NCBI RefSeq assembly: GCF_030813595.1
Contig: NZ_JAUSUH010000007.1
Location: 1-64,000, forward strand
DNA: 64,000 nt
Reading direction: 5' to 3'
From: Ancylobacter vacuolatus
GTDB taxonomy: Bacteria; Pseudomonadota; Alphaproteobacteria; Rhizobiales; Xanthobacteraceae
The stretch's first letter is position 1. Each line of letters opens with the position of its first letter. The position numbers were made by a program, and so were the translations under genes. The notes under the pieces are model-generated. The model worked only from the letters and a program-made list of their open reading frames with translations. It was not told the DNA's origin and ran no database searches. Positions 26,406 through 31,538 of the stretch are shown piece after piece.

Positions 26406-27305
26406 ATGGAGATCCAGCCTCTGCTGTCGGCGAACGACATCCTGGCGCAACCGCGCTTCGGGCTGGCGCGCGAGATTTATGTCCGCGACATGCTCGAACT
26501 GCACGAGAACCAGCCGGCCGAGAACCGGCTGCTGATCGATGGTGGCACAGCGACGATCTTCATGAGCGTCATCATCATGGACGCCGGACATCGACCCCAC
26601 GACCGCGCCACATGGCCGACCATGCAACTGCTCAAAGGGCAGATGGAGGCACATGGCATCGCGAGCTGGCGCCGCACTCACGATATCGTCCGCCGTCTTG
26701 CCGATACGGGATACATCTCCGCCTACCGGGCGCCGGATGATCGCCGCGTCACATTGCTGGCGCCCACGGACAAGATGCTAATCCATGATCGCCGCGCGCT
26801 CCGCGTCTATTATCACCCGCTGCACGTCCTCTTTCCGGACCCCGGATATCCCGAACCGGTCAACCACGACCCGGCCTTTCATCGCGTGGCGCGCGATATA
26901 TGCGCCGCGTTCCTGGCCCATGCGCAGCAATTCATCCTGGCCAATCCGGTGATCGCCTTCTTCCTGCCCCGGCAGGCCGGCCACATGATCCTGACCAAGC
27001 TCATGCATGTGTGCGCCCACCAGGACGATCAGGCGGCGCCGCAGGTCTCCTTTCTCAAGATCGGCGACAGCTTCGGCGTGTCCCGCACCCATGTGCGCAA
27101 GTTGCTGCAGGGAGCGGCGGAGCTCGGCTTCGTGCGGCTGTCGGGCAACAGCGTCGACGTCACGCCCACGTGTCGCGCCAGCTTTGACCGATTCCTGGCC
27201 GACACCATGGCTGGCCATGATCTCATTTATCGCATGGCGAAAGCACGCATGGCCCCTGGCGAAGACGCCGCAGCGGTCCCAATCGCGACCGTTGAAGCCA
27301 GTTGA
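26406..27305 (+). CDS. Winged-helix DNA-binding protein, MarR-like, function unknown
   Basis: A 299-residue soluble protein with two likely winged helices. The first lies around residues 70-120 (MQLLKGQMEAHGIASWRRTHDIVRRLADTGYISAYRAPDDRRVTLLAPTDKM), like MarR proteins with the DDRR wing. The second is near 215-255 (VSFLKIGDSFGVSRTHVRKLLQGAAELGFVRLSGNSVDVTP). Two wings in one chain is unusual for MarR itself. It stands alone between a broken hydrolase and a cupin gene, and no target can be named. No good ribosome site is seen before ATG 26406. Confidence 0.65.
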   Translation: MEIQPLLSANDILAQPRFGLAREIYVRDMLELHENQPAENRLLIDGGTATIFMSVIIMDAGHRPHDRATWPTMQLLKGQMEAHGIASWRRTHDIVRRLADTGYISAYRAPDDRRVTLLAPTDKMLIHDRRALRVYYHPLHVLFPDPGYPEPVNHDPAFHRVARDICAAFLAHAQQFILANPVIAFFLPRQAGHMILTKLMHVCAHQDDQAAPQVSFLKIGDSFGVSRTHVRKLLQGAAELGFVRLSGNSVDVTPTCRASFDRFLADTMAGHDLIYRMAKARMAPGEDAAAVPIATVEAS

Positions 27306-28324: not shown

Positions 28325-29620
28325 TCAACTGACCGGGCGCATCTGGAGCTCTGCTATCTTTTTCTTCAGCGCCTTCATTTCCTCGAAGCGAGGCGTGATG
28401 TCCCGCAGCACGGCCACCATGCCGGTCACCTTGCCGGCCGCGTCCTTGATCAGGGCGATGGTGAACTCTAGCGAGATTCGCCGCCCGTCCCGCGTGAGGC
28501 CGGGTACGGCGAGCATGTCGCCAGCGCCATAGCGGCTTTGGCCGGAGGCGATGGTCTCGCGGTATCCCTCCCAGTGACGAGCGCGGAACGGCTCGGGAAT
28601 GATGATGTCGAGCGAGCTTCCAAGCGCTTCCTCCTCGGTAAAGCCGAATATGCGCTCAGCGCCTGGGTTCCACAGCACGATGGCCCCCTCGGCGTCGCTG
28701 CCGACGACGGCATCGGCCGGGCTATCGATCAAGGCGTCCCCGATCGCCTGGCGCGCGATGCCCGCACTGCGCGAGCGGCGGGCCGCCACGGTAGTGCTTG
28801 GGGCGGGCGGGGAGGGCGAGGCCGACGGGGAATGGTCGAACAGGTCTTCCACGGTTCCGAAGAATTCGTAATGGAGCCGTTCGGCAGGAACGCCTGATGT
28901 GGCGAGGGCAGGCACGAAGCTCCTGAGGAAGGCCAGTGGACCGCAGAGGAAGTAATCTGCTTCGGTGATCGGGGAATGGGTTTCCAGCCAGTCCAGCGTC
29001 AGGTGTCCGGCAAGGTCGAAGTCTCGCCCGGCAACCTCCTCTTTTCCCGCCCTCGTATGGAAGAAAGTTGTCTCAGCTCCCACAGCGGCGGCAAGCGAGC
29101 GCACATGCTCCCGGAATGCGTGGGTGGCGTTGCTCTGCGTGCAATGAATGAACTGCACGGCGACATTACGTGGCGCGGCGGCAAGTGCCTCCAGCATCGC
29201 CACCATCGGTGTCAGCCCAACGCCGGCGCTCAGCATGACGAGGGGGCGCCCATCGCCGATGGGAAGCACGAAGGTGCCGGACGGTGGCGCGATGTCCAGG
29301 AGCGTGCCTTCGATCGCTTCGTCGTGCAGCCATTTCGACACCGTCCCCTCGGGCTCGCGTTTCACGGAGATGCGGTAGCTTTCGCCATTCGGCGCCGCCG
29401 AGATGGTGTAGTTGCGCTTCTGCCGACCTGCGCCGCCGATATCGGCGAACAGCGTCAGATGCTGGCCGGCAAGGTGTGGGGCGGGCGGGCGGCCGTCGAG
29501 CGGGCGCAGCACGAACGAGGTGATGACGTCGCTCTCCCTGTGGCGGCTCTCGACCGCAAAGGGGCGCGCCGCCTGGCCTGCGTACCCTTGGTCGTCTGTT
29601 TTCGCGCCACTTTCGGTCAT
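28325..29620 (-). CDS. Flavohemoglobin-type FAD/NAD(P)H reductase fused to a probable heme-binding PAS domain
   Basis: A 431-residue two-part protein. Residues about 18-256 match the reductase half of flavohemoglobin (Hmp): FAD-binding RNYTIS at 69-74, NAD-binding LSAGVGLTPMV at 130-140, LCGP at 225-228 and the terminal LHYEFFG at 249-255, usually the end of Hmp. There is no globin. After a Pro/Ser linker (261-285) comes a PAS domain (about 298-408, DSPADAVVGSDAEGAIVLWNPGAERIFGFTEEE). Its IPEPFRARHWEGY segment places H349 where FixL and related PAS domains have the heme-ligating histidine. A short charged helix (411-426) ends the protein. It starts at 29620 with GGAGG before it. It is divergent from nsrR, so nitric oxide detoxification or sensing is inferred. 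Heme binding is a prediction. Confidence 0.85.
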   Translation of the reverse strand: MTESGAKTDDQGYAGQAARPFAVESRHRESDVITSFVLRPLDGRPPAPHLAGQHLTLFADIGGAGRQKRNYTISAAPNGESYRISVKREPEGTVSKWLHDEAIEGTLLDIAPPSGTFVLPIGDGRPLVMLSAGVGLTPMVAMLEALAAAPRNVAVQFIHCTQSNATHAFREHVRSLAAAVGAETTFFHTRAGKEEVAGRDFDLAGHLTLDWLETHSPITEADYFLCGPLAFLRSFVPALATSGVPAERLHYEFFGTVEDLFDHSPSASPSPPAPSTTVAARRSRSAGIARQAIGDALIDSPADAVVGSDAEGAIVLWNPGAERIFGFTEEEALGSSLDIIIPEPFRARHWEGYRETIASGQSRYGAGDMLAVPGLTRDGRRISLEFTIALIKDAAGKVTGMVAVLRDITPRFEEMKALKKKIAELQMRPVS

Positions 29621-29639
29621 GCCTTGCCTCCACTTTAAT

Positions 29640-29658
29640 CATGTATATGCTATACATG
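29640..29658. promoter_or_regulatory. Palindromic operator between reductase-PAS gene and nsrR
   Basis: CATGTATA and TATACATG are perfect inverted arms around TGC, giving a 19-base site. It lies 19 bases before the reductase-PAS start and 35 bases before the nsrR start. Dyad sites of this type (ATGTAT...ATACAT) suit NsrR dimers, so it probably controls both genes. Confidence 0.72.
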
Positions 29659-29693: not shown

Positions 29694-30143
29694 ATGCAAC
29701 TGACACGCTATTCCGACTACGCCCTGCGCGCGCTGCTGTACCTCGCGGCACGTAACGACAGGCTCTGCGCGATTTCTGAAATCGCGGCCGCTTACTCCAT
29801 TTCGCAGAACCATCTGGTGAAGGTGCTGCACGACCTCGGAAGAGCCGGCTATGTCGCGAGCGTGCGCGGCCGGACCGGCGGCTACCGGCTGGCGCGGCCC
29901 GCCAGCGAGATTCGCGTCGGCGCGTTGCTGCGCCACACCGAGGACGATTTCGATCTGGTCGACTGCGCCGGTTGCGCGTTGTCGGGCGGCTGCGGCGTGT
30001 CGCCCGTTCTGGACGAAGCGATGGGGGCTTTTTTCGCCGTCCTGGACAATTACACCCTCGCCAGTGTTGTGGAGCGCAAACACGGCTTCCAGCACTTGAT
30101 CCTCTCTCTCGGCGCCGGCGCTCCGAGGGAGAGGATGGCATGA
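29694..30143 (+). CDS. nsrR: Rrf2-family nitric-oxide-responsive repressor NsrR
   Basis: A 149-residue repressor. The start MQLTRYSDYALRALLYLAARNDRLCAISEIAAAYSISQNHLVKVLHDLGRAGYV is typical NsrR, including the aspartate at position 8 known as a cluster ligand in NsrR. Cysteines 91, 94 and 100 (DCAGCALSGGC) fit the iron-sulfur triad. NsrR releases DNA when its cluster is nitrosylated. The start at 29694 was preferred to longer frames because the winged helix begins there. It shares four bases with a small downstream frame. Confidence 0.92.
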   Translation: MQLTRYSDYALRALLYLAARNDRLCAISEIAAAYSISQNHLVKVLHDLGRAGYVASVRGRTGGYRLARPASEIRVGALLRHTEDDFDLVDCAGCALSGGCGVSPVLDEAMGAFFAVLDNYTLASVVERKHGFQHLILSLGAGAPRERMA

Positions 30144-30220: not shown

Positions 30221-30519
30221 TGGAAGCACGCGCACGGACTGACGGGGCTCGCCGGCCAATCGACGCCACCGTCGGTGTCGCCGTCCTCTGCTCAAGTGTC
30301 GCCTTCGCCATTCAATGGCACAGCATGCTCGTTGGGGGCGCGCTGGTTGCCGCCGCGTGCGGTCATTTTCCATTCCGTGATCTCGCGCCCAGCCGACAGC
30401 GCTTGGCTATCTGGAGTTCAGCCGGACCGCTGCTGATCTGTTTCGCACAGCTACGGCTGCGAAATCTTTGCGCCTTAATGACATTCCGGAGGTCGTCGTG
30501 TCCGCAAGCTCCCGCCTGA
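30220..30519 (+). CDS. Possible small membrane protein before the HPP gene
   Basis: A 99-residue frame beginning MEARARTDGARRPIDATVGVAV at 30220, one base into the stop of the preceding peptide. It has two or three hydrophobic stretches (VGVAVLCSSVAFAIQW, MLVGGALVAAACG, LAIWSSAGPLLICFAQ). It overlaps the HPP gene start by 22 bases. It has no recognisable family; it could be a decayed gene or non-coding spacer. The HPP gene's own ribosome site lies inside it. Confidence 0.3.
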   Translation: MEARARTDGARRPIDATVGVAVLCSSVAFAIQWHSMLVGGALVAAACGHFPFRDLAPSRQRLAIWSSAGPLLICFAQLRLRNLCALMTFRRSSCPQAPA

Positions 30520-31538
30520 AACTATTTCGGCCCATTCTGGCCGGCGCCAATTTGCGTGACCGAATGCTGGCGTGCATAGGAGCCTTAGCCGGCATTGCGC
30601 TGACTGGGCTGATCTGCGCTTTCGCCGCGACCGAGCCGCAGCACCTGCTGTGGCTGGTCCCGCCGATGGGGGCTTCGGCGGTGCTGCTCTTCGCGGTGCC
30701 TGCCAGCCCTATGGCGCAGCCCTGGCCGGCGATCGGTGGCAACACGCTCTCCGCGCTCGTCGGCGTGCTGGTGGCGCACAGCCTGCCGCTGTCGCCGCTC
30801 TCCGCCGGGATCGCCGTCGGCGGCGCGATCGCCGTCATGTCGTTGCTGCGCTGCCTGCACCCGCCGGGCGGCGCCGCGGCGCTGGTGGGGCTGTTTGCCG
30901 GCGCGTCCTCCAGCTACGCTTTCCCGTTTCTTCCCGTCGGGGCGAATGCCGTGGTGCTCGTGGCCTCCGCCTGGGTCTATCACCGCTTCTCCGGGCATAC
31001 CTATCCGCATGTGCCAGCACCGCCCGCCAAGCCGGCGACGGAACTGCCCTGGACCTTCAGCAAGTCGGATCTGGCTGCCGCTCTGGAACGGACGGGCGAG
31101 ACCTTCGACATTGACGTGAACGATCTCGAGCGGCTGCTGCGCGAGATCGAGCAGAGGGCGCTGGCGCGCTCCTACCGAGACCTTGCCTGCGCGGATATCA
31201 TGCATCCGGGCGTCGTGGCCGGCCGCGTGACGATGCCGGTGGATGAGGTGCGCGCGCTGCTGGTCCAGCACGACGTCCGCCGATTGCCCATCCTCGACGA
31301 GGACGGCCGGATCGTCGGCGCGATCGGGCTTCGGGAACTCGCGGCTTCCGGCGCCTTGCTGGCAGAAGCGATGACCCCGGCCACCACCGCCGCGCCGGAT
31401 ACGCCCGCCATCAGCCTCCTCGACCGCTTCGCCCTCGACCGTGTCCATGCCGTCTTCATCGTGGACGCCGCACGTCGCCCTGTTGGGGTGGTAACGGAGG
31501 CGGATTGGCTCGCCGTGCTGAGACGCGGTCTGGCTTGA
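30498..31538 (+). CDS. HPP-family membrane protein with CBS domains
   Basis: A 346-residue protein. The N-terminal half is an HPP domain of four membrane segments (LACIGALAGIALTGLICAFA, LLWLVPPMGASAVLLFAVPASPMAQPWPAIGGNTLSALVGVLVA, AVMSLLRCLHPPGGAAALVG, with the name-giving HPP). The C-terminal half has two CBS motifs (ADIMHPGVVAGRVTMPVDEVRALLVQHDVRRLPILDEDGRIVGAI and FALDRVHAVFIVDAARRPVGVVTEADW). The GTG at 30498 follows GGAGG by four bases and was chosen over a TTG ten codons upstream. HPP proteins have been linked to nitrite transport, which fits the NsrR neighbourhood; CBS domains suggest control by adenine nucleotides. Confidence 0.88.
   Translation: MSASSRLKLFRPILAGANLRDRMLACIGALAGIALTGLICAFAATEPQHLLWLVPPMGASAVLLFAVPASPMAQPWPAIGGNTLSALVGVLVAHSLPLSPLSAGIAVGGAIAVMSLLRCLHPPGGAAALVGLFAGASSSYAFPFLPVGANAVVLVASAWVYHRFSGHTYPHVPAPPAKPATELPWTFSKSDLAAALERTGETFDIDVNDLERLLREIEQRALARSYRDLACADIMHPGVVAGRVTMPVDEVRALLVQHDVRRLPILDEDGRIVGAIGLRELAASGALLAEAMTPATTAAPDTPAISLLDRFALDRVHAVFIVDAARRPVGVVTEADWLAVLRRGLA

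Follow-up and report, generated by a model that had tools for sequence, protein, structure and literature searches.

The window analysed here is a 64,000-nt stretch of the Ancylobacter vacuolatus genome, and the gene of interest occupies positions 28325–29620 on its minus strand. It encodes a 431-aa protein that reads from an ATG at 29620 to a stop at 28325 with no internal stop in the frame, and a likely ribosome-binding site, GGAGG (29627–29631, minus strand), was recognized by eye six bases 5′ of the ATG. The protein consists of a reductase half (residues 16–259; 28844–29575, minus strand) with FAD and NAD domains and the motifs RNYTIS, GVG, CGP and YEFFG, the last at residues 251–255, a variable linker (residues 260–294; 28739–28843, minus strand; mean pairwise identity 0.295 across 41 fusions), and a PAS domain (residues 295–408; 28397–28738, minus strand) resembling FixL and DosP by sequence. 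Pfam placed FAD_binding_6 at residues 48–117, NAD_binding_1 at 129–233 and PAS at 295–408, all above the curated cut-offs, and the same scan gave no Globin match. The NCBIfam flavohemoprotein model PRK13289 aligned residues 16–259 with profile positions 152–397 of 399 (255.7 bits; model cut-off 432), leaving positions 1–151 uncovered, so the globin portion is missing. These searches agreed with the sequence-only reading, which had described the reductase half of Hmp including its YEFFG motif, no globin, and a PAS domain at the C-terminal end. Among sequences of solved structures, flavohemoproteins were the top matches of the reductase half (3ozu, 2.4e-50; 1cqx, 6.2e-50; 1gvh, 1.5e-43), and its sequence has the characteristics of an Hmp-like FNR-type reductase that binds FAD and NAD(P)H. 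FixL and DosP accounted for the best 13 of 20 phmmer matches of the PAS half; a profile of 31 PAS rows likewise returned FixL/DosP first, its weaker matches including many other PAS sensors, and residues 295–408 are predicted to adopt a PAS fold.

Divergent from the fusion gene, with 73 bp between the two start codons, lies a gene for an NsrR-like Rrf2 regulator (29694–30143, plus strand; PF02082, 2.6e-35). The best NCBIfam match of its product was NsrR at 128.7 bits (cut-off 182), with RirA at 127.1 bits (cut-off 193), and because the score is under the NsrR cut-off the name nsrR denotes a best match rather than a formal assignment. The intergenic gap contains a 19-bp palindrome, CATGTATA-TGC-TATACATG (29640–29658), a putative shared operator; the pattern CATGTATNNNNNATACATG had this one exact match genome-wide and two more sites at 2 mismatches. 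Across 41 fusion loci the regulator was visible at 23 or more, and at 21 or more it was divergent and no farther than 112 bp from the start of the fusion gene; 20 of the 41 fusions showed no divergent adjacent regulator within the flank examined. These neighbour counts are lower bounds because most loci were covered with about 1.5 kb of flank. A similar AT-rich palindrome of the ATGTAT/ATACAT type (ATGCAT/ATGCAT at locus L060) was found at 14 of the 21 loci with an adjacent regulator, Ancylobacter vacuolatus included, and was absent from the other 7 by the test used; GTGTAT/ATACAC palindromes occurred at two loci where the regulator is not adjacent (L063 and L094). The earlier suggestion of a divergent nsrR sharing an operator with the fusion gene was thus upheld as to a divergent Rrf2 gene that recurs at 21 of 41 loci with a putative palindrome, and not as to NsrR identity, for which the score was below the cut-off.

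Downstream of the regulator is a gene for a protein with HPP transmembrane and CBS domains (30468–31538, plus strand), a recurrent neighbour found near the fusion at no fewer than 18 of the 41 loci. On the other side, a 299-aa frame at 26406–27305 matched no Pfam or NCBIfam model at the thresholds applied. A link to denitrification was considered and rejected: copper nitrite reductase was found above cut-off in just 2 of 30 genomes and had no match in the genome of Ancylobacter vacuolatus itself, so that this single test showed no internal source of NO.

The fusion architecture is genuine and is kept in related bacteria: 41 different full-length fusions were counted across 38 genomes from two families of the order. 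At E 1e-60 or better, 35 of 296 genomes of Xanthobacteraceae were matched, one of them (G084) with Hmp only; the other 34 contained 37 full-length fusions, each with both halves in a single frame and no internal stop, and a second family of the same order contributed 4 more (L098–L101). The named genomes nearest to the fusion were Ancylobacter rudongensis (86%), A. aquaticus (78%) and A. polymorphus (77%). A search of the phylum with the PAS half at 1e-30 matched 22 of 398 genomes in 23 rows, and only two genomes (G000 and G022) had a fusion-length frame among these rows. Six loci had long N-terminal frames (L042, L044, L054, L061, L062 and L063), in which no globin was found at E 0.01. The sequence-only reading had allowed for a frameshift joining two separate genes; the 41 single-frame homologues rule out both a frameshift and a chimera.

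The same homologues bear on the idea that the gene is a decayed or truncated hmp fused by accident, for which the missing globin part could be cited. In the reductase tree, 17 Hmp reductases formed one clade (100/99) with all 41 fusions outside it, and in the PAS tree of 87 rows, which has few columns and many open forks, the 41 fusion PAS halves formed one clade (98/93). Both halves are under purifying selection, the PAS more strongly, in the 7 pairs computed out of 40 pairs with the Ancylobacter vacuolatus gene (dN/dS 0.04–0.21 for the PAS and 0.16–0.31 for the reductase). Homologues, clades and purifying selection together refute the idea of decay, which we regard as wildly improbable. In the alignment of the 41 fusions, from which 9 repeat rows were omitted, mean pairwise identity was 0.76 in the PAS, 0.57 in the reductase and 0.30 in the linker. 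All 41 keep S74, G133-V134-G135, C226-G227-P228 and E252-F253-F254-G255 in the reductase, R69 and Y71 being retained in 37 and 38, respectively, and the invariant stretches of the PAS include RxRHWxGY, RYG and LxVP. The tree pattern fits a single old origin of the fusion, which stays unproven because the trees are unrooted. Descent from the hmp-PAS gene pair of Methylobacterium found no support, with the fusion reductases grouping apart from those Hmps; the few-column PAS tree gave no resolution of the order of the fusion PAS and that pair.

His349 (codon 28574–28576, minus strand) lies within RARHWEGY. It had been proposed, from its PEPFRARH-WEGY context, to occupy the position of the heme histidine of FixL-type PAS domains, and alignment with FixL and DosP segments placed it on the proximal-histidine column, that of DosP His77, which we take to be the proximal heme histidine. 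The doubt raised earlier, that His349 might not be conserved among homologues, was dispelled by its invariance in all 41 fusions; it is likewise invariant in all 31 rows of an alignment that combines the Ancylobacter vacuolatus fusion PAS with 30 separate PAS proteins. At other PAS loci, a set unsorted by cofactor, 17 of 19 could be aligned, and the column held a histidine in 2 of the 17 and a gap in 4. The column of FixL Arg220, presumably the distal O2-holding Arg, and of DosP Arg97 is occupied by Leu370 (codon 28511–28513, minus strand), again without exception in the 41 fusions and the 31 PAS rows. DosP Met95, which we take to be the distal residue, corresponds to Asp368, and FixL Arg206, which we take to be the propionate Arg, to Glu355 in the Ancylobacter vacuolatus protein. 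Judged from these columns, the domain has the proximal histidine of FixL/DosP-type heme PAS domains and, in place of the distal Arg of FixL or the distal Met of DosP, Leu370 and Asp368; the proximal side is retained and the polar distal side is not. We lean slightly towards a b-type heme bound through His349. Lack of heme synthesis as an objection was ruled out by the presence of ferrochelatase in all 6 genomes queried, that of Ancylobacter vacuolatus included, three of which are 1.9–2.1-Mb carriers of the separate PAS.

The loss of both the distal Arg and the propionate Arg of FixL could also mean that the PAS is a heme-free docking, dimerization or regulatory module, with the reductase feeding a separate acceptor and His349 serving a structural role or a partner contact. 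The invariant positions, which are many and spread beyond what we judge a heme pocket to need, point the same way, as does the finding, in a survey of 45 loci, of this PAS as a small protein on its own, with neighbouring enzymes of widely differing kinds. However, the nearest PAS domains of solved structure are heme PAS domains, the proximal His column is invariant, and no candidate electron acceptor was seen beside the Ancylobacter vacuolatus fusion gene. A heme-free module is a possibility we take seriously without expecting it to prove correct.

The fusion points to a PAS subfamily that, with its near kin, is spread across 55 of 397 genomes of the order (E 1e-18 or better). In the survey of 45 separate-PAS loci, the best matches among those listed, the neighbours were CoA-transferase family III at 26 loci, a Cys/Met PLP enzyme at 5, and NnrS, complete hmp, HPP and nsrR-like genes at 2 each; the HPP genes are those of L016 and L108. 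The CoA-transferase family III identity was established by Pfam on one example, and we read this neighbour as presumably a formyl-CoA:oxalate transferase. The 26 loci are found phylum-wide (L114–L120, L122–L125, L129, L131–L142, L015 and L016), and none had an Hmp match within the stretch examined. The PAS can therefore function without a fused reductase, since 26 of 45 separate PAS genes adjoin a CoA-transferase with no Hmp match, and it could possibly regulate oxalate breakdown. In 2-Mb genomes the separate PAS gene stands between two CoA-transferase genes (L138, L140, L141; L147).

Other separate PAS genes have neighbours of a different kind. The PAS gene lies directly 3′ of a complete hmp in Methylobacterium soli (L012) and in G623 (L103), and in Methylobacterium aquaticum the plasmid locus L144 has, after hmp, a PAS-coding piece that is shortened before a transposase-like frame; the frames after the shortened PAS (L144:5124–6400) read as integrase- or transposase-like. 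NnrS, presumably a nitric-oxide stress membrane protein, is found beside the separate PAS at L110, where Pfam confirmed it, and at L112, as a 68% identical match. At L113:1–1905 an nsrR-like gene, a group III truncated-globin-like gene, a cyclo-ligase-like gene and the PAS gene stand in a row; the truncated-globin-like gene had no Pfam match at 1e-6, and the cluster is similar to annotated hmp clusters of other Alphaproteobacteria. These neighbours connect the PAS with nitrosative stress in some branches of the tree; in the others it accompanies different enzymes.

Of 30 genomes from the genus, 8 gave a full-length Hmp in searches with an Hmp protein query. The genus has 22 fusion genomes, 7 with a complete Hmp and 15 without; that of Ancylobacter vacuolatus yielded no complete Hmp with this query and no Globin or Bac_globin match, in a Globin screen that overlooked the Hmp of G280 (L145). 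The absence of complete Hmp from 15 of the 22 would suit an enzyme in which a PAS heme has catalytically replaced the globin, acting as an NO dioxygenase or NO reductase and removing NO with NAD(P)H electrons. So would the gene order, the fusion being divergent from an NsrR-like gene just as complete hmp is at L012, L144 and L149. At the last of these (G203), complete hmp takes the place of the fusion opposite the nsrR-like gene, and the HPP gene lies on the far side of hmp instead of after the regulator. Yet complete Hmp coexists with the fusion in 7 of the 22 genomes, at one locus in tandem (L087, genome G103, where the two genes are consecutive on one strand); the PAS accompanies globin-bearing Hmp in Methylobacterium soli and G623; and Leu at the distal Arg column would argue against stable O2 binding. 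An NO-removing enzyme of this type seems to us improbable. The fusion, the regulator and hmp are also neighbours in G001 (L088), and L087:251–2356, beside the tandem pair, contains frames that read as integrase- or transposase-like.

A 160–170-aa globin frame was found about 5.5–7.5 kb from the fusion in seven genomes (G062, G268, G280, G264, G284, G203 and G288). A split flavohemoglobin, with this small globin as a separate partner of the fusion, was dropped because at three loci (L084, L085 and L086) the globin sits among genes that, from their sequence starts, read as being of the nitrate-assimilation type.

The reading that we favour, with somewhat less than even confidence, is that of a NAD(P)H reductase under the control of NsrR, joined by its linker to a PAS domain that senses gas or redox state and probably contains heme. 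NO would inactivate the NsrR-like repressor and thereby turn the fusion gene on, and the PAS domain would take up a b-type heme via His349. The FAD of the reductase may then pass electrons from NAD(P)H to the PAS heme, keeping it ferrous and able to bind gas, a FAD-to-heme transfer that we propose tentatively. If heme is bound, the pocket would be expected to prefer NO (or CO) over O2, because Leu replaces the Arg of FixL. The protein would be foremost a switch that is coupled to NAD(P)H and responds to NO or redox state, or else an NO-binding heme reductase, and not a copy of the globin dioxygenase. We prefer a switch to a copy of the NO dioxygenase because the PAS accompanies globin-bearing Hmp, has no O2-holding distal residue and is elsewhere reductase-free. 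Against the favoured reading count the position of the PAS, C-terminal to the reductase where the globin of Hmp is N-terminal, as well as the fusions without an adjacent divergent regulator (20 of 41) and the palindrome-free loci among those with one (7 of 21). Leu370 and Glu355 at the FixL arginine columns, the separate PAS genes next to a CoA-transferase gene and the lack of a copper nitrite reductase match in the Ancylobacter vacuolatus genome also count against it. A closer analogy to flavohemoglobin, in which a self-reducing heme-PAS regulated by NsrR stands in the place of the globin and senses or processes NO, and the separate PAS proteins are plug-in single-domain heme proteins, is conceivable but rather doubtful. 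The distal Leu, the replaced propionate Arg and the other settings of the PAS subfamily speak against a simple exchange of heme PAS for globin.

Among the open-access papers listed we found no description of an Hmp-reductase/PAS fusion and no report on the cofactor of this PAS subfamily. The flavohemoglobins known to us use a globin, and we know of no heme-PAS sensor with a reductase of its own; a conserved protein in which an Hmp reductase is covalently joined to a FixL-like PAS would bring together, on a single polypeptide, the supply of NAD(P)H, the binding of gas and stress from NO. The fusion shares with Hmp (1gvh, 3ozu, 1cqx) the FAD/NAD reductase half and the divergent pairing with an NsrR-like gene. 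In contrast, Hmp has an N-terminal globin, whereas the fusion has none and carries a PAS at its C-terminal end, with a reductase that falls outside the Hmp clade. FixL (1d06, 1y28) resembles it in the PAS sequence, the PEP-x-R-x-x-H motif and the proximal His column; FixL is, however, a kinase, whereas the fusion lacks a kinase, has a reductase attached, and has Trp after the His, Leu for Arg220 and Glu for Arg206. Similarity to DosP/EcDos (9cdr, 1v9y) likewise extends over the PAS and the His77 column, but DosP is a phosphodiesterase, which the fusion is not, and Met95 and Arg97 are replaced by Asp368 and Leu370. The one passage of PMC3820574 found to treat a PAS domain concerns DevS and DosT. 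FG214, as described in PMC13060918, is a heme-PAS one-component regulator with an HTH effector and chiefly bis-His ligation, for which a gas or redox switch was proposed; it provides a heme-binding PAS outside a two-component kinase, as proposed here for the fusion, although FG214 as described there is without a reductase.
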